Origin: Candidatus Kuenenia stuttgartensis | GTDB lineage: Bacteria; Planctomycetota; Phycisphaerae; Phycisphaerales; SM1A02 | Reading direction: 5' to 3' | DNA: 64,000 nucleotides | Assembly: GCA_945902075.1 (NCBI GenBank) | Contig: CAMDMA010000006.1 | Coordinates: 1 to 64,000 of the forward strand | Part shown: positions 521-52,150 of the stretch, piece after piece | Numbering within the stretch: position 1 is the first letter of the stretch | Layout: the number at the start of each line of letters is the position of its first letter | Made by a program: the position numbers and the translations under genes | The notes under the pieces: model-generated | Seen by the model: the letters and a program-made list of their open reading frames with translations, nothing else | Told to the model about the DNA's origin: nothing | The model's database searches: none

Positions 521-2584
521 CTACTCACATGCACCCCAGTTTGAAAGCAGTAATGCGAGATCGGTGCCGTCGGTTTCGCCGTCGCCTGAGAGATCGCCTT
601 CGGTGGAACCTGGGCCGTTTTGCCAGCCTGAAAGCACAATTGTGACATCCGCGCCCGCAACTTGACCATCGCCGTTGAGGTCCCCGAAGCAGGAGCATGC
701 GGCGTTGAAGTTGTTGCCGCCGAGATCTGACCAACAGCATTCGAAGATCGGTGATGAGCAGTCGCAGAATGTCGAGGAAGCGATGGCGTAGCTGAGGCTG
801 TAGGTTTGAATGAACAAGCCGATGTCGCAGTGGCAATGTTCGAAGCTGCACTCATCGATGAGCACTTGTCCGGATCGTCCATCCATCACCGAGACTGCCG
901 TGAAGTTTCGGAAGGTCGATCGGCGCACGGTGTAAGGCGCCCATCCAAACAAGGCGGTTTGCAATGATCCACCGTCGAAGAGCGAGTCTTCGATGGTCAA
1001 GGATCCAGACGCGTTGTAGATCTGCGGAGTCCAACTCGTTTGTCCGCCGACAAGCGAGCAGTTGCGAAACACACTCACGCCGCCTTCTTGCACAAAGCAG
1101 TTTCCGTGAATGCCTTCATTGTCAAGGAAGTTGCAGTAGTCCACGATGATGGAACCACCGACTGAACGGATCGCTCCGCCGTCGCCGTAAAAGCCGACGA
1201 TCTCATCAGCGACGCAGCGCACAAAGTCGCAGCCAATGAACATCGGCGCGCCGCCCGCAACATGCGCGCCTCCGCCAGTGCCGTTGCGACATTCGATGAA
1301 CGCGCAGTTGTCAAACACTGCGGACGCGTTGCTCACACTCACGCCACCTCCACGCTTTCCTGCGCGTCCAAGGTTAAAACCAATCACGCGCGTCGCGGAA
1401 CTCTCTCCTGTATGCGCAACAAAACATCGCGTGTTCTGCGGCGCAAGCACTCGCGCGCCATGCACCACGGCGCTCTTCACGAGAATCGCTTTGCCGCGCA
1501 GATCAACCGACTCAACATAGTCGCCGCTCGCAACAAGCACCGTGTCACCCGCAACAGCCGCATCTACCGCTGCTTGAATCGTTGCGTAATCTGCTGGGAC
1601 ATTGAGCGTGCTCGATTGCACACTCATCGCCAACTCCCATGTTTCAGGCACATTTCCGCGACCACTCGGCGTTGGACCCATGCCGCCTGGCAGCACGATC
1701 ACATCACGCGCGCGGTCGAAAGCAATATTTGTGTAGCCACGCGCTGGCCCAAGTGTTGGACAAAGCGACCATGCCGAACCATCCCAAAGATAAGTCTGCG
1801 GGTACTCGACTTCACCACAGCATGTGGTGCCTCCATGAATGACCGCTTGCTGTCGACCGCTGTCGTAGGTCATGCCAAACACATAGCGCGCCGGGCCCGT
1901 GTTGCTTGCGAAGGACCACGCCGAACCATTCCAACGCCATGTGTCGTTTTTGTTGGCGAAGTAATAGCCGCCATGCAGGATGATCTCGCCGCGCGCCTCG
2001 TCGTAGGCCATCTTGTGTGCGTATCGATTTCCGATCGGACTCGTCGCCCATCTTGACCACGAGTTGGTCCCTGGGTCGTATTCCAGCGTGTCGGTCAACA
2101 GCAGCCCCGAGCCTGGCCAACCTCCGTGCACAACGAGTCGATTTCGACCGCGGTCAAACGCCATCGCGAAATCGCCGCGACCAAGCGCCTCGGGCGGCGC
2201 AGACGCGAGTTGCGTCCACGTCACGCCGTCCCATGACCAGAGATCCTTCCGCCCTCCCATGCTTGAGTAGCCGCCAAAGAGGAGGCAGCGCTGCCCCGCG
2301 GGGTCATAGGCCATGGCTGCAGCTCCGCGATCCGGTGGCCCCAAAACAGCGACGGTTTCCCAGGTCGTTCCGTCCCACTCATATGTGGTCGTGCCGCTGA
2401 ATAGGACAGTGCGCTGCCGACTTTCGTCGTAGCACACCTCATACGAACTGGGCCCAACCCCAGCAGCAAGCGTCCAACCTTCGCCGCACTGCGCGAATGC
2501 CGAACTTGTAGAAACGAAAAGTCCAAGAACTGCCACCCCGAGACATGCGAAATCCGTCGCCAACCTCAAAATCATCGTGCGCAT
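521..2584 (-). CDS. secreted Kelch-like / right-handed beta-helix protein with dockerin-like tail
   Basis: A 687-residue exported protein. The chosen ATG at 2584 has an AAAGGAG ribosome site and is followed directly by a signal peptide (MRTMILRLATDFACLG… to SAFAQ); the reading frame stays open further upstream but has no such support. Residues ~40-310 carry six Kelch-like blade motifs of the form (Y/F)DxxRxxxVLxGG. Residues ~330-610 begin with a classic polydisaccharide-type beta-helix opener (NVPADYATIQAAVDAAVAGD) and contain several Cys. The last ~58 residues are two dockerin-like EF-hand-type repeats ending WGACE. Role is unknown; the build suggests a cell-surface or extracellular binding protein. 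It is divergent from the ABC-F gene. Confidence 0.85.
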   Translation of the reverse strand: MRTMILRLATDFACLGVAVLGLFVSTSSAFAQCGEGWTLAAGVGPSSYEVCYDESRQRTVLFSGTTTYEWDGTTWETVAVLGPPDRGAAAMAYDPAGQRCLLFGGYSSMGGRKDLWSWDGVTWTQLASAPPEALGRGDFAMAFDRGRNRLVVHGGWPGSGLLLTDTLEYDPGTNSWSRWATSPIGNRYAHKMAYDEARGEIILHGGYYFANKNDTWRWNGSAWSFASNTGPARYVFGMTYDSGRQQAVIHGGTTCCGEVEYPQTYLWDGSAWSLCPTLGPARGYTNIAFDRARDVIVLPGGMGPTPSGRGNVPETWELAMSVQSSTLNVPADYATIQAAVDAAVAGDTVLVASGDYVESVDLRGKAILVKSAVVHGARVLAPQNTRCFVAHTGESSATRVIGFNLGRAGKRGGGVSVSNASAVFDNCAFIECRNGTGGGAHVAGGAPMFIGCDFVRCVADEIVGFYGDGGAIRSVGGSIIVDYCNFLDNEGIHGNCFVQEGGVSVFRNCSLVGGQTSWTPQIYNASGSLTIEDSLFDGGSLQTALFGWAPYTVRRSTFRNFTAVSVMDGRSGQVLIDECSFEHCHCDIGLFIQTYSLSYAIASSTFCDCSSPIFECCWSDLGGNNFNAACSCFGDLNGDGQVAGADVTIVLSGWQNGPGSTEGDLSGDGETDGTDLALLLSNWGACE

Positions 2585-2694
2585 CGTGACTCCTTTGTGC
2601 CAAGAAATCCTCGGCACGTGGACATACGCCATCTCGCGCAAATTCTGCACGACAAGTCGCCGAATCAATCCTGCAGTCGGCTACGCTCTCTCGC

Positions 2695-8139: not shown

Positions 8140-9669
8140 TCAGGCTGCACCAACTGGGACCGGCGAAACCATCGGAGCTATCGATACTGGCTTCGCGTCG
8201 CGTCGCGCAACCTCATTCACGAAGCTAATACCTGCCGTTTCGAGCCGATTCGAGATCTTTCGTGCCTTCGACGAGAGGTATGCGTGGAGGAGAAGCGAAG
8301 GAATCGCAACGATCAGTCCATATTCTGTGGTGATGAGTGCCTCAGAGATTCCGCTCGAGAGAGTCTTCACATCACCGGTTCCGTAGATGGTGATCAGACT
8401 GAAGGTGTTCATGATGCCCGTAACGGTTCCGAGGAGACCAAGAAGCGGCGCAGCAGCAGCGGAAGTCGCAACAAAGGGAAGCATGGACTGAGCCTTCAAC
8501 TGTGTCCGGTGCATCACCTCATACATGCTCTCCTCCATGATCTCGCGTCCCGAGTCCATGGTGGATACGCCGGTCTCAAACATACGGCCAAGCGGACCAG
8601 GAAGCTTCGCAGCAAGTGCCGCGGCCTTCGCACGCTCACCCGCACCGACAGCACGGAGAACATCGCGCACGCGGCGCTCGGAAGGCATCCGAATGAACAT
8701 CATCATCACCCACTTAAAGAGCGCAACGAGAAGCGCTGCGCCAGCGAGTACACCGATGGGCCACATGACCGGGCCGCCCTTTTTGATGTGCTCCCAAAGT
8801 GTCTCTTCCGTCTCAGCGATGCGATGAGCGTTGCCGAGCGTCGGATCGAACGGCATGCTGCCTGTGCCGCTCGCGACGTAACTTGCAGCCGCAGTGCGGA
8901 CCTCAGGGACTTCGAAGATGGTCACGTTCGGTTCGAGCGATCCGAGCCGCTGCTCCGCGGTACCGACGAGATTTCCATCCGCACTTCGGAAGAGCGCGAC
9001 TGGTCCCGCAAGAACGAATGTTCCGGGGATGACGGCACCCGTCGAGTCGACGGCAGATCCGTCGAAACGCGTTCCATTGAAAGCCTCGTGAAGCCGTTCA
9101 ATTCCAGCCGAAAGCATCTTCACCTGTACTTCAAAGCGCTGCTTGGCGGGAAGTTCATCATTCTCCGTCACGTCACGCGTTGCCTCAAGATCTTTCCGCA
9201 TGCGCTGAAGTTCAGTGATGTGGAGACCCGACTCAAAATTGCGCAGGTACTCGACGAGGAGGTTTGATAGATACGCAACCTCTTCCTCACGGGACTTGAT
9301 CTCAGCAGTCAGCTTCGTCAAGTCGAGCGAGCGCGTTGCGAGCAAGTTTGTCGTCGCTTGATACTTCTGCCGCGCCTTGATGAGCGATTGCTCAAGATCA
9401 CCAATCTCTCGCATCAGCGGAATCTTTTCCGCTGCCGTGTTTGTGCGGAAGGCTGAGAGCTCAGCAAGACTCGATTCGAGTTTTGCCTCGATATCCTTTG
9501 CCGCTGCGGCAAAGGTAGGCGCTGCTACAGCCGGAGTTTCCGCCTGCGCGGTGGATTCGGGTTGCGCGGGCGACTGCGCGAGCGCTGAAGAAAGCGCAGT
9601 GAGCGCAATCATCACGGAAACGCTGCGGCCGGCGGTACGGAGCAAATTTGTTTGGTGCGTCGTGTTCAT
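8140..9669 (-). CDS. TtpC-like coiled-coil plus MotA/TolQ/ExbB protein
   Basis: 509 residues. A signal peptide (to SSALAQ), a long periplasmic coiled coil (residues ~55-200, e.g. KDIEAKLESSLAELSAF and LTAEIKSREEEVAYLSNLL), a beta-rich part (~215-290), then a membrane part with GPVMWPIGVLAGAALLVALF and a TolQ/ExbB core (AAPLLGLLGTVTGIMNTF, SSGISEALITTEYGLIVAIPSLL). This is the build of TtpC, the extra ExbB-like subunit that TonB2 systems of Vibrio and relatives need. The large N-terminal part probably contacts the DUF3450 protein encoded 19 bp upstream. Confidence 0.9.
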   Translation of the reverse strand: MNTTHQTNLLRTAGRSVSVMIALTALSSALAQSPAQPESTAQAETPAVAAPTFAAAAKDIEAKLESSLAELSAFRTNTAAEKIPLMREIGDLEQSLIKARQKYQATTNLLATRSLDLTKLTAEIKSREEEVAYLSNLLVEYLRNFESGLHITELQRMRKDLEATRDVTENDELPAKQRFEVQVKMLSAGIERLHEAFNGTRFDGSAVDSTGAVIPGTFVLAGPVALFRSADGNLVGTAEQRLGSLEPNVTIFEVPEVRTAAASYVASGTGSMPFDPTLGNAHRIAETEETLWEHIKKGGPVMWPIGVLAGAALLVALFKWVMMMFIRMPSERRVRDVLRAVGAGERAKAAALAAKLPGPLGRMFETGVSTMDSGREIMEESMYEVMHRTQLKAQSMLPFVATSAAAAPLLGLLGTVTGIMNTFSLITIYGTGDVKTLSSGISEALITTEYGLIVAIPSLLLHAYLSSKARKISNRLETAGISFVNEVARRDAKPVSIAPMVSPVPVGAA

Positions 9670-10557: not shown

Positions 10558-13500
10558 TCAAAAGTTCATCTGGAAGGACAGGCCGACCGCGAAGTCGATG
10601 CCTGCCGTGTAGGAGGTATTGAGAATGTCGGGACCGATGTACTCAGAGCGGTACACGGTCTGAATCTCCGGATTCAGAAGGTTCTTCGCCTGGAAAAACA
10701 ACTTCCAATGCTCAGTGATTTGCTGCTGCATCGTGAAGTTGAGCGTGGCATAGGACAGCGAGTAGACGCTTGGAATAAACACGCCAGTTAGCCGCTCTGC
10801 GCCTGCACCGGTTTCAAGTGTTTCGCCTTGCACGTTGTAAAACAGGCCAAGCGTCGTTCCCAACGGCTCCCACTCGTACGTAGCATTGAGGTTGAGCAGA
10901 AAGCCTGGCGTCCCTGCCATGTCACGCGAAGCAATTGGAAAGCCGATTTCGGTGAAATCTGCCTGCTCGTCCTCAGGCAACGTCACACTCGAACGAATGA
11001 AAGTAGCGTTCGCACCGAGAGACAATCCTTGCAGATCCTCGTGCACCGCCTCCATGTCGAGGCGCATTTCAAGTTCGGCGCCCGTCATGGATCCCTCTGG
11101 GTAGTTCACTGCAGTCGTGTACGCGAAGTTTTGTGGCGCGACGAATTGCGCGTACTCAATCGGAAGATCGATCGACTTGTAAAAGAGTGAGCCAGAGAAG
11201 AACAGTCCCTCGACCGGCTTGTAGTCGGCGCGGAGATCAAAATTCTCAACTGAACTCATCTCAAGCTCGGGGTTTCCGATGAAAATTGGGCCACCGAGAA
11301 ACTCCTGCTGCAGAATCGGTGTGAGCTCGCGGAACGTCTGCCGCGCAATCGTTTTCGCAGCGTTGGCCGTGAGAACCCAACACTCATCTGGTGTCCACTT
11401 CACACCAATCTGGGGCAGCAGATCGTTCTGCTTAAAATCGACATTCGCAGCGTCTGGATTGTCAGCGAAGCTGATCGGCACGAGTCCGCCTGGCGGAAAC
11501 CACGTCGCCCCAGCCTCGCCGTACACCTCTGTTGACAGTGATGTCGACTCAACGCGAGCGCCGGTGATGAGATTGAACTGCTCACCTAATGGCAAGTCCA
11601 CCATGCCATACACCGCGCCAATTTTTTGCTGCCCGTCGTAATCGATGTCATAGACCGACTCAATCATCGGGTGATTCTGGTCGGGGAAGACTGCACTCCA
11701 TGGCTCGTCCCAACCCGACACATAAAATGTGTCGGGATCATCGGCATTGCTGAAACTCTCTTGCGTGTACGAGCGCTCGACGCTGTCACCAAAAAATCCA
11801 AACTTCGCGTAGCCCTGCCGCTCGTTGTCGGTCAGAAATGGCAACTTCACGTTGCCTGCGAGTTGCGTGCTCGATTCGGTGACCTTCTGCCAGATGTGCT
11901 GCGCCCAACCAAGACCCGTCGACTCGGCAGGGCGAAGTGCGAGCCACGCGCCGGGCTCACCGGGAAAATACTCATCGGACTCAGGGAGCCAGTAGGCAGA
12001 AAATTGCGTTTTGTCGGGCTGATCGAATACTGCCTCGCTAAACGCAACTCGCCAGTCGATGATCGGCGCAAGTGCGGCTTCCTCTTCCGACACGCCCTCG
12101 TCGAACGTGAGCCTGTGCTCGCCGTTGAAGATCGCGGATGATGTCGAGCGTTCGGTGTACACCAGGGTTTCGAGTCGCTGGTACGGCGACCACAGCCACT
12201 GCGCGTTGTTGCCGGGTGCTGACGGATCGTTCGGGTCGTACTCAGGATTTCCTGGCGTGAACTCGGGGCCGGTGAAGTACGCTTTTCCGCGCGTATTTTC
12301 AGACAGTACGGCCGTGTTGTCGGCGACGCGCGTGTAGAGGAGTGCGACACCAAACTTGTGGTTTGTGGATTCAATGCCGAAGGAACCCAGTGTGCCCCAC
12401 TGCACAGACTCAGAGCCTTGGGTGACATCCAGTAGGCTCGACTGAAACTCACCCTGTGATGGCGACCCAGAGTAGTACTCCGGTACCACTCCCTCGTCGG
12501 GTGTTACGAACCAGCTGTCCTCAACGCCATTGTCAAAGTACGACGAATCCCGCTCGTAGAAAAAGCTCAGGAAGCCGCCGATCTTTACGTCATCGGTGAG
12601 ATCCCACTTCCCGCCGCCGGACGCAGACCACTTGTAGTCAAGAGGCGAACTCTCGGTGGTCGTGCCGACAGCGCTTGACCACGACTCGCCGATGATGTCC
12701 GTCGGAATCCCACGGTCCGCCCCCGTGCCCCACGTGTTCACTCCGCCGCCGGGCTCGTAGGTGAGAAAATCGTCGCGGAACGATGCCTGCGAATTGAAGT
12801 TCGCCTGCGCCTTGATCTCGAAGGAAGATTCCTCGGGAATATCCTTCAGATCAATGTTGATCGCGCCACCCGACGCATCGCCCTGCTGATCAGGCGTGAA
12901 AGTCTTACTGACCTGCACACTCTCGATCACCGCAGTCGGAAACTGATCGAGCTGCACCGCGCGCCGCTCAGCATCGGAAGTCGGCAACCGAACACCATCG
13001 AGCTGCGCGCTGACGTAGCGGTCCGGAAGTCCGCGGATCACCGCGTATTTGCCGTCCTGGACTGATGCACCTGGGACAAGGAGAAGAGCCGCTGCCGCAT
13101 CACTTGCACCCGCCTTCGAGAGGATTTCAGCACCAACAGAGTCAAGGAGTTGGGGGCTCTCAAGGCGAAGGGTCAGCAGCGCTGCCTCAGTCCCGCCGAG
13201 TTCGAGTTCCTGCACCACAAACTCGTCCATGTCCTCAAACTCACCGACGAGTTCGGAGTTCATGTTCGCCACCTGACCCGCGACCACCACCACGTCTGCT
13301 TTCACCTGCCGGACAAAGCCCTCCTTTGAAAGGATGAGCGTGTACCGCCCGGCCGGAAGCGAGAGCCCAAAGTCGCCGTCGTTGCCAGTGGTCGTCTTCA
13401 GACCCGTCTCAACGACGGTGACGGTGGCACCAACAACCGGGCCGCCTAAGTCTCGGTCCGTGAGAAATCCGCGAAGCGTGCCAGCATCCTGCACAACCGC

Positions 13501-13566
13501 AGCACCAACTGCCGATGAGACGATCGCAGTGACCGTCGCGATAAAGATGAAGGGTCGGCTGTGCAT
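10558..13566 (-). CDS. TonB-dependent outer-membrane receptor
   Basis: 1002 residues. Signal peptide (1-~22), a carboxypeptidase-regulatory-like beta domain (~28-110, GTLRGFLTDRDLGGPVVGATV), a plug domain (~150-255, with VIRGLPDRYVSAQLDGVRLP and DASGGAINIDLKDIP) and a 22-strand barrel ending in a C-terminal Phe (VGLSFQMNF), the Bam recognition signal. The long barrel and added N-terminal domain fit SusC-like or outer-membrane polymer/siderophore uptake receptors; no SusD follows. The substrate is not readable. Being joined to its own TonB machine and to a beta-helix surface protein implies dedicated uptake of one ligand class. No strong ribosome site precedes the ATG. Confidence 0.93.
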   Translation of the reverse strand: MHSRPFIFIATVTAIVSSAVGAAVVQDAGTLRGFLTDRDLGGPVVGATVTVVETGLKTTTGNDGDFGLSLPAGRYTLILSKEGFVRQVKADVVVVAGQVANMNSELVGEFEDMDEFVVQELELGGTEAALLTLRLESPQLLDSVGAEILSKAGASDAAAALLLVPGASVQDGKYAVIRGLPDRYVSAQLDGVRLPTSDAERRAVQLDQFPTAVIESVQVSKTFTPDQQGDASGGAINIDLKDIPEESSFEIKAQANFNSQASFRDDFLTYEPGGGVNTWGTGADRGIPTDIIGESWSSAVGTTTESSPLDYKWSASGGGKWDLTDDVKIGGFLSFFYERDSSYFDNGVEDSWFVTPDEGVVPEYYSGSPSQGEFQSSLLDVTQGSESVQWGTLGSFGIESTNHKFGVALLYTRVADNTAVLSENTRGKAYFTGPEFTPGNPEYDPNDPSAPGNNAQWLWSPYQRLETLVYTERSTSSAIFNGEHRLTFDEGVSEEEAALAPIIDWRVAFSEAVFDQPDKTQFSAYWLPESDEYFPGEPGAWLALRPAESTGLGWAQHIWQKVTESSTQLAGNVKLPFLTDNERQGYAKFGFFGDSVERSYTQESFSNADDPDTFYVSGWDEPWSAVFPDQNHPMIESVYDIDYDGQQKIGAVYGMVDLPLGEQFNLITGARVESTSLSTEVYGEAGATWFPPGGLVPISFADNPDAANVDFKQNDLLPQIGVKWTPDECWVLTANAAKTIARQTFRELTPILQQEFLGGPIFIGNPELEMSSVENFDLRADYKPVEGLFFSGSLFYKSIDLPIEYAQFVAPQNFAYTTAVNYPEGSMTGAELEMRLDMEAVHEDLQGLSLGANATFIRSSVTLPEDEQADFTEIGFPIASRDMAGTPGFLLNLNATYEWEPLGTTLGLFYNVQGETLETGAGAERLTGVFIPSVYSLSYATLNFTMQQQITEHWKLFFQAKNLLNPEIQTVYRSEYIGPDILNTSYTAGIDFAVGLSFQMNF

Positions 13567-15286: not shown

Positions 15287-17083
15287 TCAGCCGCAGCTAC
15301 CCCACGCGGCAAGAAGCGCAGAAAGGTCGGCAGCGTCAATCTGGCCATTGTTGTCGATGTCGCCGGTACCCGAATTTCCCCAGTTTCCGAGCAGGCTGGA
15401 AAGGTCGGCAGCGGAGATCTCGCCATCGCCATTAAGGTCAGCGGGGCAAGAAACTGCAACCGTGCAGAACGATCGCGGAGTTGAGATGATGCCGTAGTCG
15501 TCCGCTGCGGTCCAACCACAGGTCCAAACTGAGTCTGTCGCGAACGCGCCACGGAAGCTAGACGCCTCGAAGAAACCATCGTTTGGTGCGGGGGCAACGA
15601 GCGCTGCGGTCACCGCGTCATTTGCAGCACGCGGATCGATCGACGCCACTGGCGAGACAGAGAGACTCGGCGAAACAACAATCGTCGTTCCACGAACGAG
15701 CCCGACCATCGGGAGCGCGGTTGCCTTCACGTTTCCGTTACCCGCAGTTGAGAAGCCAAGGAAATCAGCCTCTGCAAACGGACCAGTCGGGAGACTCGCG
15801 ATCGTCGATCCCGAGTTCGAGAGATTCGTATTCGGGAAGTTGTGGGCGACTGTGTCCTTCATCTCGCAGAGTTTGCCGTTCACCTGGGCGCGGTAAAAGG
15901 AGATTGGGTTCGCCGGTGCGTTGAGATTTGAAGCACCTGCTGCCTGGAGAAAAGAGTACGAAGTCGACCAGCGCGTCTGGAAGTTGAGAGTGCCGTTGAG
16001 ACCGAAGCCACCGGATCCATCTGAGGGATTTTCGCTTCGAACGAGCGCCTCGCCGAAGCCAGTGAAGACCGACTGACGGATCTGCATGTTCACGTTGTCG
16101 CGCCATGCAGTCGCAAGATCGCCACCGTTTGAGCCTGTGCCACTCCCGGGATTTCCAACAACAGTCATGTTGTAAAGGACACCTGAGGTCACTGGCTGAT
16201 AGTCGGAGCGCTCCGCCCCGTCCATCTCGATGCCGTTATCGCCGAAGCCAGAGCCCGAAGTTGAGCCAGCCTTGCAGTAACCCTGCACGATGAGCCCGTA
16301 CTGGATCTTGCCGCGCCAACCCTGATCGAGGTCGAGGCTGTCGTCGCCGACGTTCCAGATGCTGACGTACTGCATATTCACAGTGCCGCCCCAAACCTCA
16401 ATGCCGTCGTCAAGGTTGTTGATCACATCGATGTGGTCGATGATCGTTTCGCGACCAACGCCGCCGCAGGCGAGACCGTTGAGCTCGACGTTGTTACCAA
16501 CGAACTGACCACCGTAACGAAGCGATACAAACGAGAGCGTGCCGCTGTTGTCGTCATCGTTGCCGCCGCCGTAGTACGGACGAGTATCCTTCGCACTCGA
16601 CGCAATCAGACCTTCCATGATCGCGCGATTGTTCGCATTCGGTGAAGCCGTGTTGCCAGGGACAGCGTCCTCAGAAATGTAGCCTGCGCCAAGGAGGGTT
16701 ACGTTGCCCCACTCAGAGGTCGCTGTCGGGCGGAATGCGCCGCGCGGATTTCCCGCGTTCCACGAATCGAAATCTGCCTGCGAGGTGAAGATGATCGGCT
16801 CATCCTGCGTACCGATGGCAATGAGGCGTGCACCCTTGGTCGCGACGAGTGCGGCGCGCGTGTTGCCGTTCAGCTCGCTCGCGATGACAGTGCCTTCCTG
16901 GATCTCAAGCGTGGCACCTGGGTTGATGTAGACATCAGCCTTGAGGACGTAGACGTTGTTCTTTGTCCAAGTCGTCGAAGCAGTGATATCCGAGGCGACG
17001 AGGATCTCGGCACCGTGGGCGGAAGCTGCGGCGGCAAGGCCGAAGCCGATCGTGGCGAGGTATGCGCTGGTGTTGCTCTTCAT
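15287..17083 (-). CDS. secreted right-handed beta-helix surface protein with dockerin-like tail
   Basis: 598 residues from the ATG at 17083, which has AAGGA nine bases upstream and opens a signal peptide (TSAYLATIGFGLAAAASAHGAE). The body is a beta-helix with a repeated pattern of short strands, rich in Asn/Gly (DHIDVINNLDDGIEVWGGTV, MQYVSIWNVGDDSLDLDQGW). The final ~53 residues are the dockerin-like pair, from CPADLNGDG to a terminal WGSCG. Proteins of this type are often encoded next to TonB-dependent receptors in marine bacteria; here it is the first gene of the nine-gene TonB cluster. A role in capturing substrate at the surface is inference. Confidence 0.82.
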   Translation of the reverse strand: MKSNTSAYLATIGFGLAAAASAHGAEILVASDITASTTWTKNNVYVLKADVYINPGATLEIQEGTVIASELNGNTRAALVATKGARLIAIGTQDEPIIFTSQADFDSWNAGNPRGAFRPTATSEWGNVTLLGAGYISEDAVPGNTASPNANNRAIMEGLIASSAKDTRPYYGGGNDDDNSGTLSFVSLRYGGQFVGNNVELNGLACGGVGRETIIDHIDVINNLDDGIEVWGGTVNMQYVSIWNVGDDSLDLDQGWRGKIQYGLIVQGYCKAGSTSGSGFGDNGIEMDGAERSDYQPVTSGVLYNMTVVGNPGSGTGSNGGDLATAWRDNVNMQIRQSVFTGFGEALVRSENPSDGSGGFGLNGTLNFQTRWSTSYSFLQAAGASNLNAPANPISFYRAQVNGKLCEMKDTVAHNFPNTNLSNSGSTIASLPTGPFAEADFLGFSTAGNGNVKATALPMVGLVRGTTIVVSPSLSVSPVASIDPRAANDAVTAALVAPAPNDGFFEASSFRGAFATDSVWTCGWTAADDYGIISTPRSFCTVAVSCPADLNGDGEISAADLSSLLGNWGNSGTGDIDNNGQIDAADLSALLAAWGSCG

Positions 17084-17543
17084 GGTCAGGTCCTTCAGTA
17101 GGGAGAACGGGATGGAGCCAAATGCTCCGCGAATCGATGGTGAACTCGCAGATTTCCGCGAGACAGAGGACAATGCGTGGCGAATCTTCACGAGGTGCTT
17201 GTTCTCGGCTCAGGTTGCGCGAAGATTGCGCTTGCACCGAGAGTCGTTGGAGTTCTCTCCAACGGACGAGATGAAGGTAGAAGCCGTCTGTGTGCGAACG
17301 ATGAAGAGCGCGTTTGTTCGACGCGTAAAGTGGACTCTTGATGGAGTCGCTTCCTTGACCGTTTCTTCACGTGATCTGAGTGATGTGCACGAGTGAGGCC
17401 TTGCTTCGCAGAGTCGTCGAGCCTCGCAGCACGCGACTGCACTCGCCGCAACTCGCTGCCACATCAGTGCATGCGCCGAAACAACGCGGAATCGCTGCGT
17501 CTGCCGCGACCAACGACACAGCGCCTTCCGGTACCTTACGCCG
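17084..17543. other. divergent promoter region
   Basis: 460 bases between divergent secreted-protein genes. No supported gene. It contains a perfect 8-bp hairpin with a TTCT loop (17245-17264). On the plus strand TACCTT (17532-17537) lies six bases before the ATG of the DUF1080 gene and could be a -10 box for a leaderless message; no good -35 is seen. Confidence 0.5.
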
Positions 17544-18905
17544 ATGCAAACGAAGATCCTCGCCGCCACGCTTGCAGCGCTCGTCGGCCTTCCGTCCACC
17601 GTCCTCGCGCAATCCGTTGACCTCTTCAACGGCAGCAACCTCTCCGGTTGGGTCAATGTGAACACAGCGCCGTCGACCTTCACCGTCGCGAAGGACGAGT
17701 CGGGTTCGCCAATCATCCGCTGCTCGGGTGTACCGACTGGCATCCTTCGCACGGAAAAGGCCTACGAAAACTTCGTCCTCGAATTCGATTGGAAACACCT
17801 GTCAGAACCGGGAAACGCTGGGCTCTTCGTATGGAGCGATCCGTACTGCGCGACCGGCGTGCCGTTCTCACGGTCGATTGAGGTCCAGATCATGCTCACC
17901 CCCGACAACATCGACGGCGAGGGTCGCACGATGTACACGGGCCAGGGCGACATTTTCTCGATCTGGGGCGCGAGCATGAAGCCTGATCGTCCGCATCCAG
18001 GCGGCTGGGAGCGTTGCCTCCCAAGTGCGCGCATGACCAAAGGCAAAGGCGAGTGGAACCACTACAAGGTGACGTGTAACAAAGGCGTCATCAAACTCGC
18101 GGTCAATGGCACAGAAGTTTCCGGCTGCTCAGAGGTCACCCCGCGTAAGGGTTTCATCTGCCTCGAGAGCGAAGGCACTGAGATCTGGTTTAAGAATCTC
18201 AAAATCACCGAGCTTCCCGCCGCCGAACCCGCACTTGCACCTGAAATGGTGTGCGACCTCGCGCGCGCGGGACTGCGGCCCATCTTCAACGGCCTCACGC
18301 TCGAAGGTTGGCACGAAGGTGATGTGAACGGAAACACGGCAGCTGGTGAGCATTGGTCGGTTGGTGGCAACGTGATCCACTTCGATGGCAAGGGGCGCGA
18401 CCTTTGGACAAACGAAAGCTTCGGCGACTTTGAGATGCAAGTCGACTGGCGTTGGACTGGCGAACACCAAGGAAAAATGAACCGTCCATACATCGGGTTG
18501 GACGGGAAAACCGTCAAGAACCCTGACGGTTCGGACAAGGTGGCTGAGGTCGAAGAGCGCGATAGCGGTATCTATCTGCGCGGCAATTCGAAGAGCCAGG
18601 TCAACATGTGGGTTTGGCCCTGTGGTTCGGGCGAGGTGTACGGCTACCGGACCGATGCGGCGCTCCCGCCGGAAATTCGCGCTGCGTGCGCGCCGCGATT
18701 GAATGCCGACGCTCCGGTCGGTCAGTGGAATCGATTCCGCATCCGCATGATTGGTGAAACGCTGAATGTGTGGCTGAATGGCAAGCATGTGCTCGTCGAT
18801 GCGCGTTTGCCTGGCGTACCGAAGACCGGACCAATCGCGCTTCAGTGCCACGGCTCGCCAATCGAATTTACCAATGTCATGGTTGAGAGCCTTGATTCGA
18901 AGTGA
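17544..18905 (+). CDS. secreted protein with two DUF1080 (3-keto-disaccharide hydrolase) domains
   Basis: 453 residues. Signal peptide (LAATLAALVGLPSTVLAQ), then two concanavalin-like jelly-roll domains of the DUF1080 / 3-keto-disaccharide hydrolase family: residues ~25-225 (VDLFNGSNLSGWVNV … FVLEFDWKHL … NAGLFVW) and ~245-450 (PIFNGLTLEGWHEGD … DFEMQVDWRW … DSGIYLRGN … GQWNRFRIRM … VWLNGKHV). Most family members have one domain, so this is a tandem fusion. Planctomycetes carry many of these and they are linked to polysaccharide breakdown through 3-keto sugars. The stop codon overlaps the GTG start of the protease gene, so the two are likely co-translated. Confidence 0.88.
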   Translation: MQTKILAATLAALVGLPSTVLAQSVDLFNGSNLSGWVNVNTAPSTFTVAKDESGSPIIRCSGVPTGILRTEKAYENFVLEFDWKHLSEPGNAGLFVWSDPYCATGVPFSRSIEVQIMLTPDNIDGEGRTMYTGQGDIFSIWGASMKPDRPHPGGWERCLPSARMTKGKGEWNHYKVTCNKGVIKLAVNGTEVSGCSEVTPRKGFICLESEGTEIWFKNLKITELPAAEPALAPEMVCDLARAGLRPIFNGLTLEGWHEGDVNGNTAAGEHWSVGGNVIHFDGKGRDLWTNESFGDFEMQVDWRWTGEHQGKMNRPYIGLDGKTVKNPDGSDKVAEVEERDSGIYLRGNSKSQVNMWVWPCGSGEVYGYRTDAALPPEIRAACAPRLNADAPVGQWNRFRIRMIGETLNVWLNGKHVLVDARLPGVPKTGPIALQCHGSPIEFTNVMVESLDSK

Positions 18906-20293
18906 GCTTCTGCGATCGTGCGATGATGCTCACTTTCTGCGCCTCCACCGCTCTGCTCGCATTTCTGGCTCCGACCGCATCCGCGCGATCCGCTGAACTT
19001 GTCTTGATCAAGCAGCAAGTGGCGACGGAGACTTTCCACTTTGACTCAACCGCTCTAGAGGGACTCCGTCCGGGACAGCCGCTCCCCGCGAGTTTCGATG
19101 CCGTTGGTGGGCGCGGGCTGCTGCTCGTCGCACGAAACTCGATTGAGGATGCCGAGCACTTCGTCTTCGAGCATCCGCTGCATGCCGCGCGCGCTGCATC
19201 GCTCCTTCTCCGCGACGGGCGGTTGACCGGAACGATCGCACATCTCGGCGAGTCTCGAACCGTTCTTGGTTCGACGCGTGCAGGCGAGTCCACACTGCGC
19301 GTTGAAGACGCCACGAAGGATCTGCCGTGCGGACAGGGTGATGTCGTGCAGCCGCCTCTCACGAGCAACGGGAAGGGCGGCCGCGACAGCGGCCATGATG
19401 AAGGCTCCGTTGCTGGGGTCGCATGTGATGATGGGTCGCGCGTTGACCTGCTCGTTGCGTACACCGACGCCGCGATCGCTCAAGCGGGCGGTGAAACCCA
19501 GTTGCAGGATTCGATCCTTTGGGCCGTTGCCGATTCAAACGCAACCTACGCAGCGTCCGGCATCAGCCTCGTCGCACGGCTTGTTGGTACGACCCATGTT
19601 TCCGGATACGTCGAGGACTCTGCCTCAATGGCGAACGACCTCTATCGCCTCCGAGATCCCGCCGATGGCACCCTCGACGAGGTCAGCGCACTTCGCGACA
19701 CGCTCGGTGCAGACCTCGTCGCACTTATCCGCGCTGACGGCGGCGGCGCGTGTGGCATCGCCTTCCTGGTGAGTTCGTCCATCGATCAGCAGAGTTACGG
19801 AGTCAGCGTGACCGCGCTCGGTTGTTTCCCTGGCAAGACTTTCACCCATGAACTTGGCCACAACATGGGTTGTTGCCACGCGCCGGGCGACGGCGGTGGC
19901 TGCACCAGCGGTGGAGTGTTTCCTTACTCGACTGGTCACCGCTTCTTCGGGACGAATGACGCGCAGTACCGAACGGTCATGGCATACGCACCTGGGGCGC
20001 GCATCGGCCGCTTTTCTTCGCCTGCCGTGATCTTCGAAGGCTCACCAACCGGAATCGCCGACGAACGCGACAACGTCCGCTCGATGAACGAGAGCCGATT
20101 CATTTTCACGAACTTCCGCTGCGAAGTCTGCTTTGGAGACTTCGACTCGAGCGGCGAAGTTAACGCCGCTGACCTCGCGTCGATGCTCTCAAACTGGGGA
20201 GTTGGAAGTAAGAGCGCAGACCTCACTGGAGACGGCAATACCGACGCGGCTGACCTCGCGATTCTCCTCGGCAACTGGGGTGCTTGCGACTGA
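18902..20293 (+). CDS. secreted metzincin-type zinc metalloprotease with dockerin-like tail
   Basis: 463 residues. The GTG at 18902 overlaps the preceding stop (GTGA) and supplies an Arg before the signal peptide hydrophobic core; ATGs at 18923/18926 are possible but give an uncharged signal. A propeptide-like region (~30-160) leads to the catalytic domain (~180-400) with the zinc motif HELGHNMGCCH (first His about residue 316, HExxHxxxxxH) and a Met-turn (TVMAYAPG), as in reprolysin-like (M12B) proteases. The C-terminal ~54 residues are the dockerin-like pair, from CFGDF to a terminal WGACD. It probably acts outside the cell; substrate unknown. Confidence 0.88.
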   Translation: MSFCDRAMMLTFCASTALLAFLAPTASARSAELVLIKQQVATETFHFDSTALEGLRPGQPLPASFDAVGGRGLLLVARNSIEDAEHFVFEHPLHAARAASLLLRDGRLTGTIAHLGESRTVLGSTRAGESTLRVEDATKDLPCGQGDVVQPPLTSNGKGGRDSGHDEGSVAGVACDDGSRVDLLVAYTDAAIAQAGGETQLQDSILWAVADSNATYAASGISLVARLVGTTHVSGYVEDSASMANDLYRLRDPADGTLDEVSALRDTLGADLVALIRADGGGACGIAFLVSSSIDQQSYGVSVTALGCFPGKTFTHELGHNMGCCHAPGDGGGCTSGGVFPYSTGHRFFGTNDAQYRTVMAYAPGARIGRFSSPAVIFEGSPTGIADERDNVRSMNESRFIFTNFRCEVCFGDFDSSGEVNAADLASMLSNWGVGSKSADLTGDGNTDAADLAILLGNWGACD

Positions 20294-50143: not shown

Positions 50144-52150
50144 TTACGGGCATGCGCCCCATGAGGCGAGGATCAGCGACAGGTCCGAGGCGTTTACAAC
50201 ACCATCTCCGCTGAGGTCGTACGCAACCTGCGTCGTGCCCCAAGCGGCGAGGATCATCGAAAGATCAGACGCGCCGACGGTGCCGTCGCTATCGAAATCC
50301 GCGTCACACGCGTTCCCGTCGAGTCCAAACAGCGCCATCGCACGAGCATGCGCACGGTTGGCGACGCGCGATCCAAGTACACGGCCCTCAAAGTCGTCGA
50401 AGTCGGGGTGGATTCCGCCATAGAGCCGCGAGAGTCCCGATTGGTCGGCCGCGTCGTAATAGGTTGCCCACTGGAAGGTGAAGGTCTGCGACGGACCGTC
50501 CTCGAAGACGAGGAATTGGTTCTGCGCGCAGACAAACTCGCCGACACCGCCGGGGAAATAGGCAGAGCCGGTCAGGCGCGTCATCATCTCCGCTGCGGTG
50601 CGACTGTAGGTCGAATGTCCAGAGACGTATCCAGCAAACGGCGGCGTGACGAAGGTTGGACGCTGGTACGAGACCCAAGATCCACCAAGAATCCACTGCA
50701 CGCCCGAGTATTGCGACGCAGGAAGCGCTGGCGCACCCGGCCAGGACTTCACGGCAATCTCACCCTCGTAGCCTGCGAGATCCTGGTGGCGCTGACCAAA
50801 CTCCGTGGTCGCAGGCGTAATCATTTCGACAACGTCAGGCAGCAGATGGAGTCCGTCGGGATCGTAACTCGGAAGCGAGGGGTCGCTGCACTGGCCTTTC
50901 TGTGCGCAGTACCGAATAGCACCGATCGGGCGCATGGTGTCGTAGTGCCCCTTCACGCCCCATGCGGTGACGGCTGCGTCGTGCATGGCGCCGTTGAGTG
51001 CGACATACATCTTCACGTCCCACTCAAGCTCTCCCAGTACGGCGCCGACACCACCCATTCGCCGCGCAAAGGTCGGTTGATCAACAACCTTGTTCGCGAT
51101 TTCATTCCAGTGCCCGGGAGGCGTGGTTGAGTTGGGTCCGTCGGCCCAGAATTCGGCCAAGCAGCGCGCCCAGTCTCCGCGCTTCACAACGTTTGACGGG
51201 TACGGCAAACCGGTCACCGGATTCAGCGCGTGTCCTGTTCCATTGTTCGTTCCGAGCGCGCTGTTTCCCAGCACCGACGGAGAAATGTCGATGTAAACGC
51301 CATCGTCGGGTGAGAGCATGCTTGACTTGAGAACCACATCCTCATGACCTGCGCGCCACGCGATATCGCCCTGGCCACCCAGCACCGGCGGCGGCGCGGC
51401 GTTGAGGTATACCCCCGGCCTCGCTGGATCCATGTCGGAAGCGAGCAGGCCAAACGGCGTGACGTGGCCCCAAAACGGCGCAACCTTCGCGGGAAACCCA
51501 CCGGGGATGACATTTCCGTTCTGATCCACAAAAAACTCAAGCGCGAGTGGTTGGTACCGAGTCGGGTCAATCACATTCGGATTGAACGGTAGTGCCACAA
51601 CCAACGGCGGATTGACATCTGTGTAAGTCCCGGGAAAGCTCGCGTGATTGATCGATTCGTGAGAGTTGTCCGCAAGGCCTTGGCTGATCACGAGCGCGGC
51701 AACGCGATTTCCGACGGCAGCCGGCGTGTTCCCAACAACCGTGGTCACTTTGATCGAGTAGCCCAGTGCAGCCATCTGCGCATTGAGAATGGAGTTGATC
51801 ACCGTGACATTCGGGCTCGCGGCAAAGCGATGCTTCATCACGCGGTACGCGGCATATGAAATCGCTTCATGACGCGCGGACTCGGTATTTTTTGAAGTGA
51901 CTTTTTCATTGAAGAAGTAGCCCTGCGCCTCGGCGTCGTAGGCTGCCCAAGCGTCATACATCGCGACTGAGGTATGGAAGAGATTGCGCGCTTGGACCGG
52001 CGGTCTCACGAGGTCGCGCTTAATCGACTCGAGGAGCGTCTCATTCCAGCCGCGGGCAACCGAGTGCTGCCCGAACGCAACTCCACTGCCAAGCGTGAGC
52101 GAAGCAGCCGCAACAGTTGCGCAGAGAAGTCCCGCGAATCGAGTGGTCAT
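50144..52150 (-). CDS. secreted vanadium-haloperoxidase / PAP2-like protein with dockerin-like tail
   Basis: 668 residues. Signal peptide (LLCATVAAASLTLGSGVAFGQ), an all-helical body of the vanadium chloroperoxidase family and PAP2 motifs: FAGYVSGHSTYSRTAAEMM and SRLYGGIHPDFDDFEG, the latter with the His-x-x-x-Asp of the active site. The C-terminal ~50 residues are the dockerin-like pair, from CDADFDSDG to a terminal WGACP. Relatives use peroxide to halogenate organics; acid phosphatase activity is the other option. It is one of four proteins here sharing this tail. It is convergent with pyrC. Confidence 0.88.
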   Translation of the reverse strand: MTTRFAGLLCATVAAASLTLGSGVAFGQHSVARGWNETLLESIKRDLVRPPVQARNLFHTSVAMYDAWAAYDAEAQGYFFNEKVTSKNTESARHEAISYAAYRVMKHRFAASPNVTVINSILNAQMAALGYSIKVTTVVGNTPAAVGNRVAALVISQGLADNSHESINHASFPGTYTDVNPPLVVALPFNPNVIDPTRYQPLALEFFVDQNGNVIPGGFPAKVAPFWGHVTPFGLLASDMDPARPGVYLNAAPPPVLGGQGDIAWRAGHEDVVLKSSMLSPDDGVYIDISPSVLGNSALGTNNGTGHALNPVTGLPYPSNVVKRGDWARCLAEFWADGPNSTTPPGHWNEIANKVVDQPTFARRMGGVGAVLGELEWDVKMYVALNGAMHDAAVTAWGVKGHYDTMRPIGAIRYCAQKGQCSDPSLPSYDPDGLHLLPDVVEMITPATTEFGQRHQDLAGYEGEIAVKSWPGAPALPASQYSGVQWILGGSWVSYQRPTFVTPPFAGYVSGHSTYSRTAAEMMTRLTGSAYFPGGVGEFVCAQNQFLVFEDGPSQTFTFQWATYYDAADQSGLSRLYGGIHPDFDDFEGRVLGSRVANRAHARAMALFGLDGNACDADFDSDGTVGASDLSMILAAWGTTQVAYDLSGDGVVNASDLSLILASWGACP

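Follow-up and report, generated by a model that had tools for sequence, protein, structure and literature searches.

In some cellulosomal dockerins the two ends of the module are clasped non-covalently by Tyr-5/Pro-66 stacking, according to the available text of one report (PMC4728124), and within the Phycisphaerae a peptide-degrading complex, the planctosome, has been proposed for one freshwater family (Andrei et al. 2019; PMC6461901), with M12B reprolysins among its cargo and, in the available text, an adaptor that joins cohesin, HYR and dockerin. Among protein families, NCBIfam NF041540, named 'GC-type dockerin domain-anchored protein', covers nearly the whole length of the module considered here. 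A full-text literature search found no paper on the name 'GC-type dockerin', and the open-licence dockerin literature, as far as its text was available, yielded neither a bacterial dockerin with a disulfide clasp nor a dockerin described as a general sorting tag. Here we describe a dockerin-type tail with a cysteine (Cys) at either end, which closes four proteins encoded in a 64,000-nucleotide stretch (the window) of a Phycisphaerae genome (assembly GCA_945902075.1, contig CAMDMA010000006.1, hereafter C6, positions 1–64,000). The whole genome (3.31 Mb, 70 contigs; the own genome) holds approximately 100 dockerin-type modules, the window's four among them.

The explanation that we consider reasonably probable is that a stapled, calcium-binding dockerin module acts as a generic tag, carried by approximately 100 mostly exported proteins of this Phycisphaerae lineage, which holds its passengers at the cell surface or in the matrix, mostly by means other than a recognisable cohesin. 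A disulfide from a Cys three residues before EF-loop 1 to a Cys just past the last Trp would staple the ends of the module together in about half of the copies, as a covalent counterpart of the head-to-tail clasp in cellulosomal dockerins, and a second slot, from after repeat 1 to before repeat 2, could hold a pseudo-symmetric bond. Bond formation would take place in the periplasm, and the stapled module, small as it is, would stay folded outside the cell. The tag would most likely retain its passenger in the manner of PEP-CTERM and similar tails elsewhere, with a partner that, in most of the family genomes searched, would not be a recognisable cohesin. Of this picture, the number of copies, the pairing of the Cys, the site of the module and the scarcity of recognisable cohesins are observed and the fold is predicted; the binding of calcium, the bond itself, the export of every passenger, the anchoring and the receptor are inferred.

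Paired cysteines in a dockerin-type module

All four tails of the window consist of two EF-type D-x-[DNS]-...-D-L-...-W repeats and, as described in the initial annotation, start with C-x-x-D and end with W-G-x-C plus one residue: CFGD...WGACD in the protein at 18902–20293 (+ strand), CFGD...WGACE at 521–2668 (− strand), CPAD...WGSCG at 15287–17191 (− strand) and CDAD...WGACP at 50144–52150 (− strand). Pfam Dockerin_1 (PF00404) matches all four proteins above its gathering score of 22.9 (23.7–25.0 bits), and NF041540 matches all four below its cut-off (15.5–23.6 bits vs 29), which is exceeded by a sibling tail of the own genome (34.0) and by a tail of genome G164 (33.3). A profile search of the own genome returned 120 matches at E ≤ 0.1 in 3.3 Mb, far more than chance, with exactly four in the window (C6:524, 15293, 20129 and 50147) and two further tails on the same contig beyond position 64,000. 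Of these matches 116 were kept, the surrounding stretches being read for 115, and they sit in 109 open frames, 102 with two clean repeats; the other seven are single repeats, truncated or atypical, and stand outside the Cys counts. The tag would thereby be carried by roughly 3% of the genes (approximately 100 in 3.3 Mb; gene number estimated). One locus (L098; C27:32659) is a 362-amino-acid frame with a single terminal repeat and Cys at both ends of that repeat, a half-dockerin.

The outer Cys residues, counted by regular expressions at strict positions (C-x-x-D at loop 1 and W-x-x-C after repeat 2), occur as a pair in the 102 modules: 48 possess both, 54 neither and none a single one (Fisher test, 3e-30). 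As 54 of the tails carry neither, the supposition that both Cys are conserved throughout the family does not hold, and conservation applies to the pair rather than to every copy. A pseudo-symmetric pair can occupy the linker, where W-x-x-C closes repeat 1 and C-x-x-D opens repeat 2; both residues are present in 10 of the 102 modules, neither in 92 and a single one in none. The outer pair accompanies this inner pair in four of the 10 and is absent from six. Together the inner and outer counts point to two slots, each all-or-none and either able to occur alone.

Beyond the own genome, 137 further distinct tails, some found in the class search and others on named genome contigs (mostly planctomycete metagenome-assembled genomes), include 68 with both Cys, 57 with neither and 12 mismatches to the strict positions. 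By eye, nine of these mismatches have the second Cys moved by 1–2 residues, one is truncated where its contig stops and two are real (L150 and L237), with a lone linker Cys in L224 as an additional exception. A sample of 77 parsed modules, drawn chiefly from the f21 genomes G164 and G229 and to a small extent from G124 and G188 (13 sampled loci unparsed; two or more repeats of one module and a few parses that are doubtful included), has 47 with both, 13 with neither, 16 with the last Cys only and one with the first only, the latter a misparse by eye. Eight of the 16 last-only modules carry, by eye, a Cys at position 6 or 7 of loop 1, one has it two residues further up, and two are truncated or misparsed.

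When the windows are loosened to −4 to −2 for the first Cys and +2 to +5 for the last, the 333 distinct modules of all loci divide into 199 with both, 111 with neither, eight with the first only and 15 with the last only. A Cys within loop 1 (positions 5–8) is present in seven of the 15 last-only modules and in none of the 199 two-Cys modules (Fisher test, 2e-9), as well as in none of the eight first-only modules and five of the 111 with neither, a replacement of the kind that an internal disulfide predicts. The inner slot has a loop-2 Cys in five of the 11 modules whose linker bears one Cys vs two of the 276 whose linker bears none. Of the modules with Cys, 204 have an even number and 56 an odd one, many of the latter with an additional Cys immediately upstream; this parity was not used as proof of bonding.

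A tree of 225 tails implies at least 48 changes of the first Cys and at least 45 of the second. Among 222 homologous passenger pairs, a comparison that left out single-Cys tails from other genomes, 34 differ in Cys state, both Cys switching together; these include the window protease (18902–20293) vs L177 (35% over 381 residues) and two own-genome paralogs (53% over 484). The sequence evidence is strong that the outer pair forms a disulfide clasp, as the initial annotation had supposed, with the all-or-none counts and the replacement Cys at loop 1 in its support.

The tail is predicted to adopt the dockerin fold. An AlphaFold2 model of the protease tail of the window (20129..20290; 62-row alignment; predicted local distance difference test (pLDDT), 93.8) has chain B of 2y3n as its best solved match (TMq 0.90; Z 9.8; root-mean-square deviation 1.2 over 54 residues), with matches also to 2ozn_B (Z 8.7) and 1ohz (Z 5.7) and the other top rows being dockerins too. 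The only strand residues in the model are 10–11 and 51–52, which may pair with each other; such pairing would bring position 7 of loop 1 beside the C-terminal Cys, consistent with the replacement Cys at that loop.

Position, passengers and a possible anchoring role

The module is mostly C-terminal, and not strictly so as had been proposed. Forty-five of the 48 two-Cys copies stop 3–6 residues past the last Trp, one stops after nine, and two lie near the N-terminus, directly behind a signal peptide; 50 of the 54 Cys-less copies stop within seven residues of the last Trp and four are internal. The ending of W-G-x-C plus exactly one residue, present in all four window tails, fits 32 of the 48 two-Cys tails of the genome. 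Beyond the presumed calcium ligands, helix positions 10, 14 and 18 are mostly small and Trp20 is nearly fixed in the approximately 100 own copies.

Passengers include proteases of the M12B, S8 and M14 families, a sulfatase, PhoD, a lytic polysaccharide monooxygenase, GH18 and MauG-type peroxidases, along with RCC1 propellers, C-type lectins, PA14 and the choice-of-anchor families B, C, I and Q. One of these, choice_anch_I, was found in 18 of 198 genomes of the class, and its homologs end in a PEP-CTERM-like tail in four genomes, a dockerin in three (the own genome, a genus mate and G092) and no tag in seven, with the ending undetermined in four. That a single passenger bears PEP-CTERM, a dockerin or nothing fits an anchoring tag, and together with the range of passengers and the choice-of-anchor families it makes it likely that the tag anchors diverse proteins; the suggestion that otherwise unrelated folds share a tag for sorting or anchoring is in this way indirectly supported.

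The genomes of families f1 and f2 in the class sample have PEP-CTERM matches over the model cut-off, though weak (best E, 1.4e-4 to 0.024), and the own genome has 16 of them at E ≤ 0.1; those of f3 and f4, except G126, have strong matches. A replacement of PEP-CTERM by the dockerin is unproven on these data, as the tail-poor f2 genomes are weak too, which makes the weakness a lineage trait. The f1 and f2 genomes nonetheless possess an exosortase despite their weak PEP-CTERM matches, and these exosortases may have other substrates.

Several observations weigh against a stapled anchoring tag. Under the looser windows, the own genome has 46 modules with both Cys, 48 with neither, two with the first only and one with the last only (n = 97), or three of 97 with a single Cys, and five of the 16 last-only modules in the sample from G164, G229, G124 and G188 have no visible partner Cys. 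Because half of the copies lack Cys, the staple is not essential. The tails are mutual duplicates, with only two independent Cys switches on well-supported branches (one in the own genome alone), and for this reason the case for a clasp leans on the homologous passengers and the replacement Cys. A crude test finds a signal peptide in 32 of 37 and 47 of 51 tagged open reading frames vs 27 of 39 controls, and several homologs of choice_anch_I, those of the seven genomes above, do without a tag.

Cohesins and competing explanations

The window has no cohesin, as the initial annotation stated, and there the statement ends: elsewhere the own genome has three Pfam cohesins and, by a lineage profile built with these three, five cohesin-type domains that include them; contigs C18, C58 and C60 carry cohesins. 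The proteins that carry them end dockerin-like (one interrupted by a contig end), three have an HYR or HYR-like domain (one above the Pfam cut-off and two below), and one modelled cohesin (pLDDT 73) matches solved cohesins. A cohesin gene cluster (L366 and L070; C60:2399–10385, − strand) accounts for lineage-profile matches at C60:3314, 7103 and 9630, of which Pfam finds the last only; two or three adjoining cohesin matches also occur in G015, G023, G026, G032, G040 and G059. Within the C60 cluster a divergent cohesin-like domain (by eye) is fused to a two-Cys tail, where Pfam has EF-hand/dockerin matches only.

Across the family, 60 of 61 genomes have 25–123 matches to a mixed tail profile (Cys-bearing and Cys-less), counts that are mostly lower bounds (best ~110 candidates per genome; best 33 in the class search). 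Cohesins were recognised in nine of the 61 by Pfam (E ≤ 0.001; seven above the cut-off), in 12 by the lineage profile and in 14 in union, leaving 47 in which neither profile found one; 48 genomes with at least 25 tails have no lineage-profile match, and in G045, of the same genus as the own genome, neither profile found a cohesin beside 110 tail matches. With 60 of 61 genomes rich in tails and 14 with a recognisable cohesin, a cohesin is improbable as general receptor, and it was rejected in that role, with the limit that divergent cohesins could be missed by these profiles. The C60-type divergent domain, considered as another candidate receptor, occurs in 11 of the 61 genomes (eight of them among the 12 with a lineage-profile cohesin) and is likewise not general. 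One member of the family, G009 (3.84 Mb in one contig, 99% complete), has a single tail match; it is a natural negative, and its comparison with relatives could lead to the receptor. Class-wide, tail matches occur in 106 of 198 genomes and are numerous in f1 and in parts of f2, f4, f10, f14 and f21.

An ordinary cohesin–dockerin assembly, in which the tails dock onto adaptor cohesins in a planctosome-like manner, is the first alternative to be weighed, and we consider it unlikely. The five own cohesin-type domains do sit in dockerin-ended, partly HYR-bearing proteins like the published adaptor, and the M12B reprolysin is a published cargo (as far as the available text of that source goes). Cohesin-bearing genomes moreover have more tails (median 102 vs 65, p 0.01), a difference that persists at ≥90% completeness (102 vs 76, p 0.03) and not per Mb (p 0.19). 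Five cohesins for approximately 100 tails in the own genome, and the many tail-rich relatives in which none is recognised, G045 included, nevertheless speak against such docking. That no general receptor was found among the candidates searched (cohesin profiles and the C60 divergent domain) could instead point to a receptor-free end cap, stabilised by calcium and disulfide, that protects the C-terminus, aids folding and spreads as a handy cassette, with which the Cys-less copies, the untagged homologs and the N-terminal two-Cys copies are all compatible. We give the end cap a slightly smaller chance than docking, since the small helix positions and near-fixed Trp20 are what a shared partner could require and the same passenger bears PEP-CTERM or a dockerin.

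It is very improbable that the module is a cleaved C-terminal sorting signal for an exosortase- or rhombosortase-like enzyme, even with 95 of 102 copies stopping 0–7 residues past the last Trp and an exosortase in the genome. So short an end leaves too few residues for a membrane helix; the membrane helix and basic C-terminus that follow the motif in PEP-CTERM-type tails are both lacking behind the module, and N-terminal copies exist. Exosortase is present in 194 of the 198 class genomes, including the own genome and the almost tail-less G009, and as a candidate partner it was set aside for this lack of contrast, as it does not track the tag. Nor does a coat cross-linked by bonds between molecules seem at all probable: both Cys could be exposed and the counts alone are compatible with it, yet the all-or-none pairing, the separate occurrence of inner and outer pairs and the replacement Cys at loop 1 suit an internal bond better.

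The stapled dockerin as a surface or matrix tag accordingly remains the favoured reading, and the initial interpretation is retained in part: its clasp is supported by sequence and its anchoring tag indirectly, its family-wide Cys and strict C-terminus are given up, and its absence of cohesin is kept for the window only. A more far-reaching version is put forward tentatively, in which Phycisphaerae would display proteins genome-wide on disulfide-stapled dockerins that no longer depend on cohesin, with a new receptor reading approximately 100 tags per genome; the system would have been amplified in no fewer than two families, f1 and f21, each on its own, and would have taken over PEP-CTERM cargo in f1 and f2. 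Dockerins are known as one half of a pair, and here the other half is mostly not found; if the receptor differs, a bacterial class that is large and mostly uncultured would have a new system of protein display. The disulfide staple would also offer protein engineers a naturally locked dockerin.

The tagged proteins of the window and comparison with described systems

The tagged gene at 18902..20293 (+ strand) encodes an M12B reprolysin-type metalloprotease with a signal peptide (by eye), the zinc motif HELGHNMGCCH and a C-terminal dockerin tag; it matches Reprolysin_5 (E 1.6e-16), Dockerin_1 (25.0 bits; cut-off 22.9), NCBIfam Mep72 (E 5e-26, below cut-off) and, weakly, a family named for GlyGly-CTERM. 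Its dockerin module occupies 20129..20290, with Cys codons at 20129–20131 and 20285–20287. A 3-keto-disaccharide hydrolase gene (PF06439; 17544–18905) overlaps the protease frame (18902) by four bases, GTGA, and translation of the two may therefore be coupled, provided that an inner ATG is not the true start of the protease.

The remaining three lie on the − strand. The protein at 521..2668 (open reading frame as listed; the real start is possibly further in) is a Kelch protein with a beta-helix-like part and a C-terminal dockerin tag (Kelch_3 over cut-off; Beta_helix 25.0 bits vs cut-off 25.9; Dockerin_1 24.2), its module spanning 524..691 (Cys codons 689–691 and 527–529). The protein at 15287..17191, with a signal peptide by eye and a C-terminal dockerin tag (Dockerin_1 23.7), has its module at 15290..15448 (Cys codons 15446–15448 and 15293–15295); no other Pfam domain was found in it, so that its earlier label as a beta-helix protein lacks Pfam support. 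A vanadium-haloperoxidase-like protein at 50144..52150 (a weak assignment; DUF6851 43.8 bits, cut-off 27; VCPO_2nd 19.8, below its cut-off of 27) has a signal peptide (by eye) and a C-terminal dockerin tag (Dockerin_1 24.5), with the module at 50147..50308 (Cys codons 50306–50308 and 50150–50152). A TonB-dependent receptor with a carboxypeptidase-like N-terminal domain (10561–13566) lies near the tagged gene at 15287–17191, and an ExbB-type gene (8143–9669) lies in the same region as that receptor.

Compared with cellulosomal dockerins (PF00404; 2y3n, 2ozn, 1ohz), the tail shares the two EF-type loop-helix repeats and the predicted fold, and differs in the Cys pair as clasp, in a mostly non-cellulolytic cargo and in a cohesin that is usually not found. 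The spacing of the repeats is also shorter here than in cellulosomal dockerins. By our own placing, Trp-Gly stands at the helix ends where the type I dockerin of C. thermocellum has Lys/Arg contacts in the available text (PMC4728124). The planctosome, as far as its available description goes, is alike in its Phycisphaerae host, its M12B reprolysin cargo and adaptors much like the own-genome proteins with cohesin, HYR and dockerin, and differs in that the tag here is borne by approximately 100 proteins of diverse kinds and persists where a genome has no recognisable cohesin. PEP-CTERM/exosortase and similar tags resemble it in their many unrelated passengers, near-terminal site and interchange on one passenger, but unlike PEP-CTERM, which consists of a motif, a membrane helix and a basic end, the tag is a folded, putatively calcium-binding module for which an N-terminal site is possible. 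NF041540, compared by name and scores only, does not distinguish the own copies by their Cys: at E ≤ 0.01 it matches 31 of the 54 Cys-less ones and 32 of the 48 with two Cys. With the non-covalent clasp and NF041540 both already known, what would be new here is the Cys pair in an otherwise known kind of dockerin.

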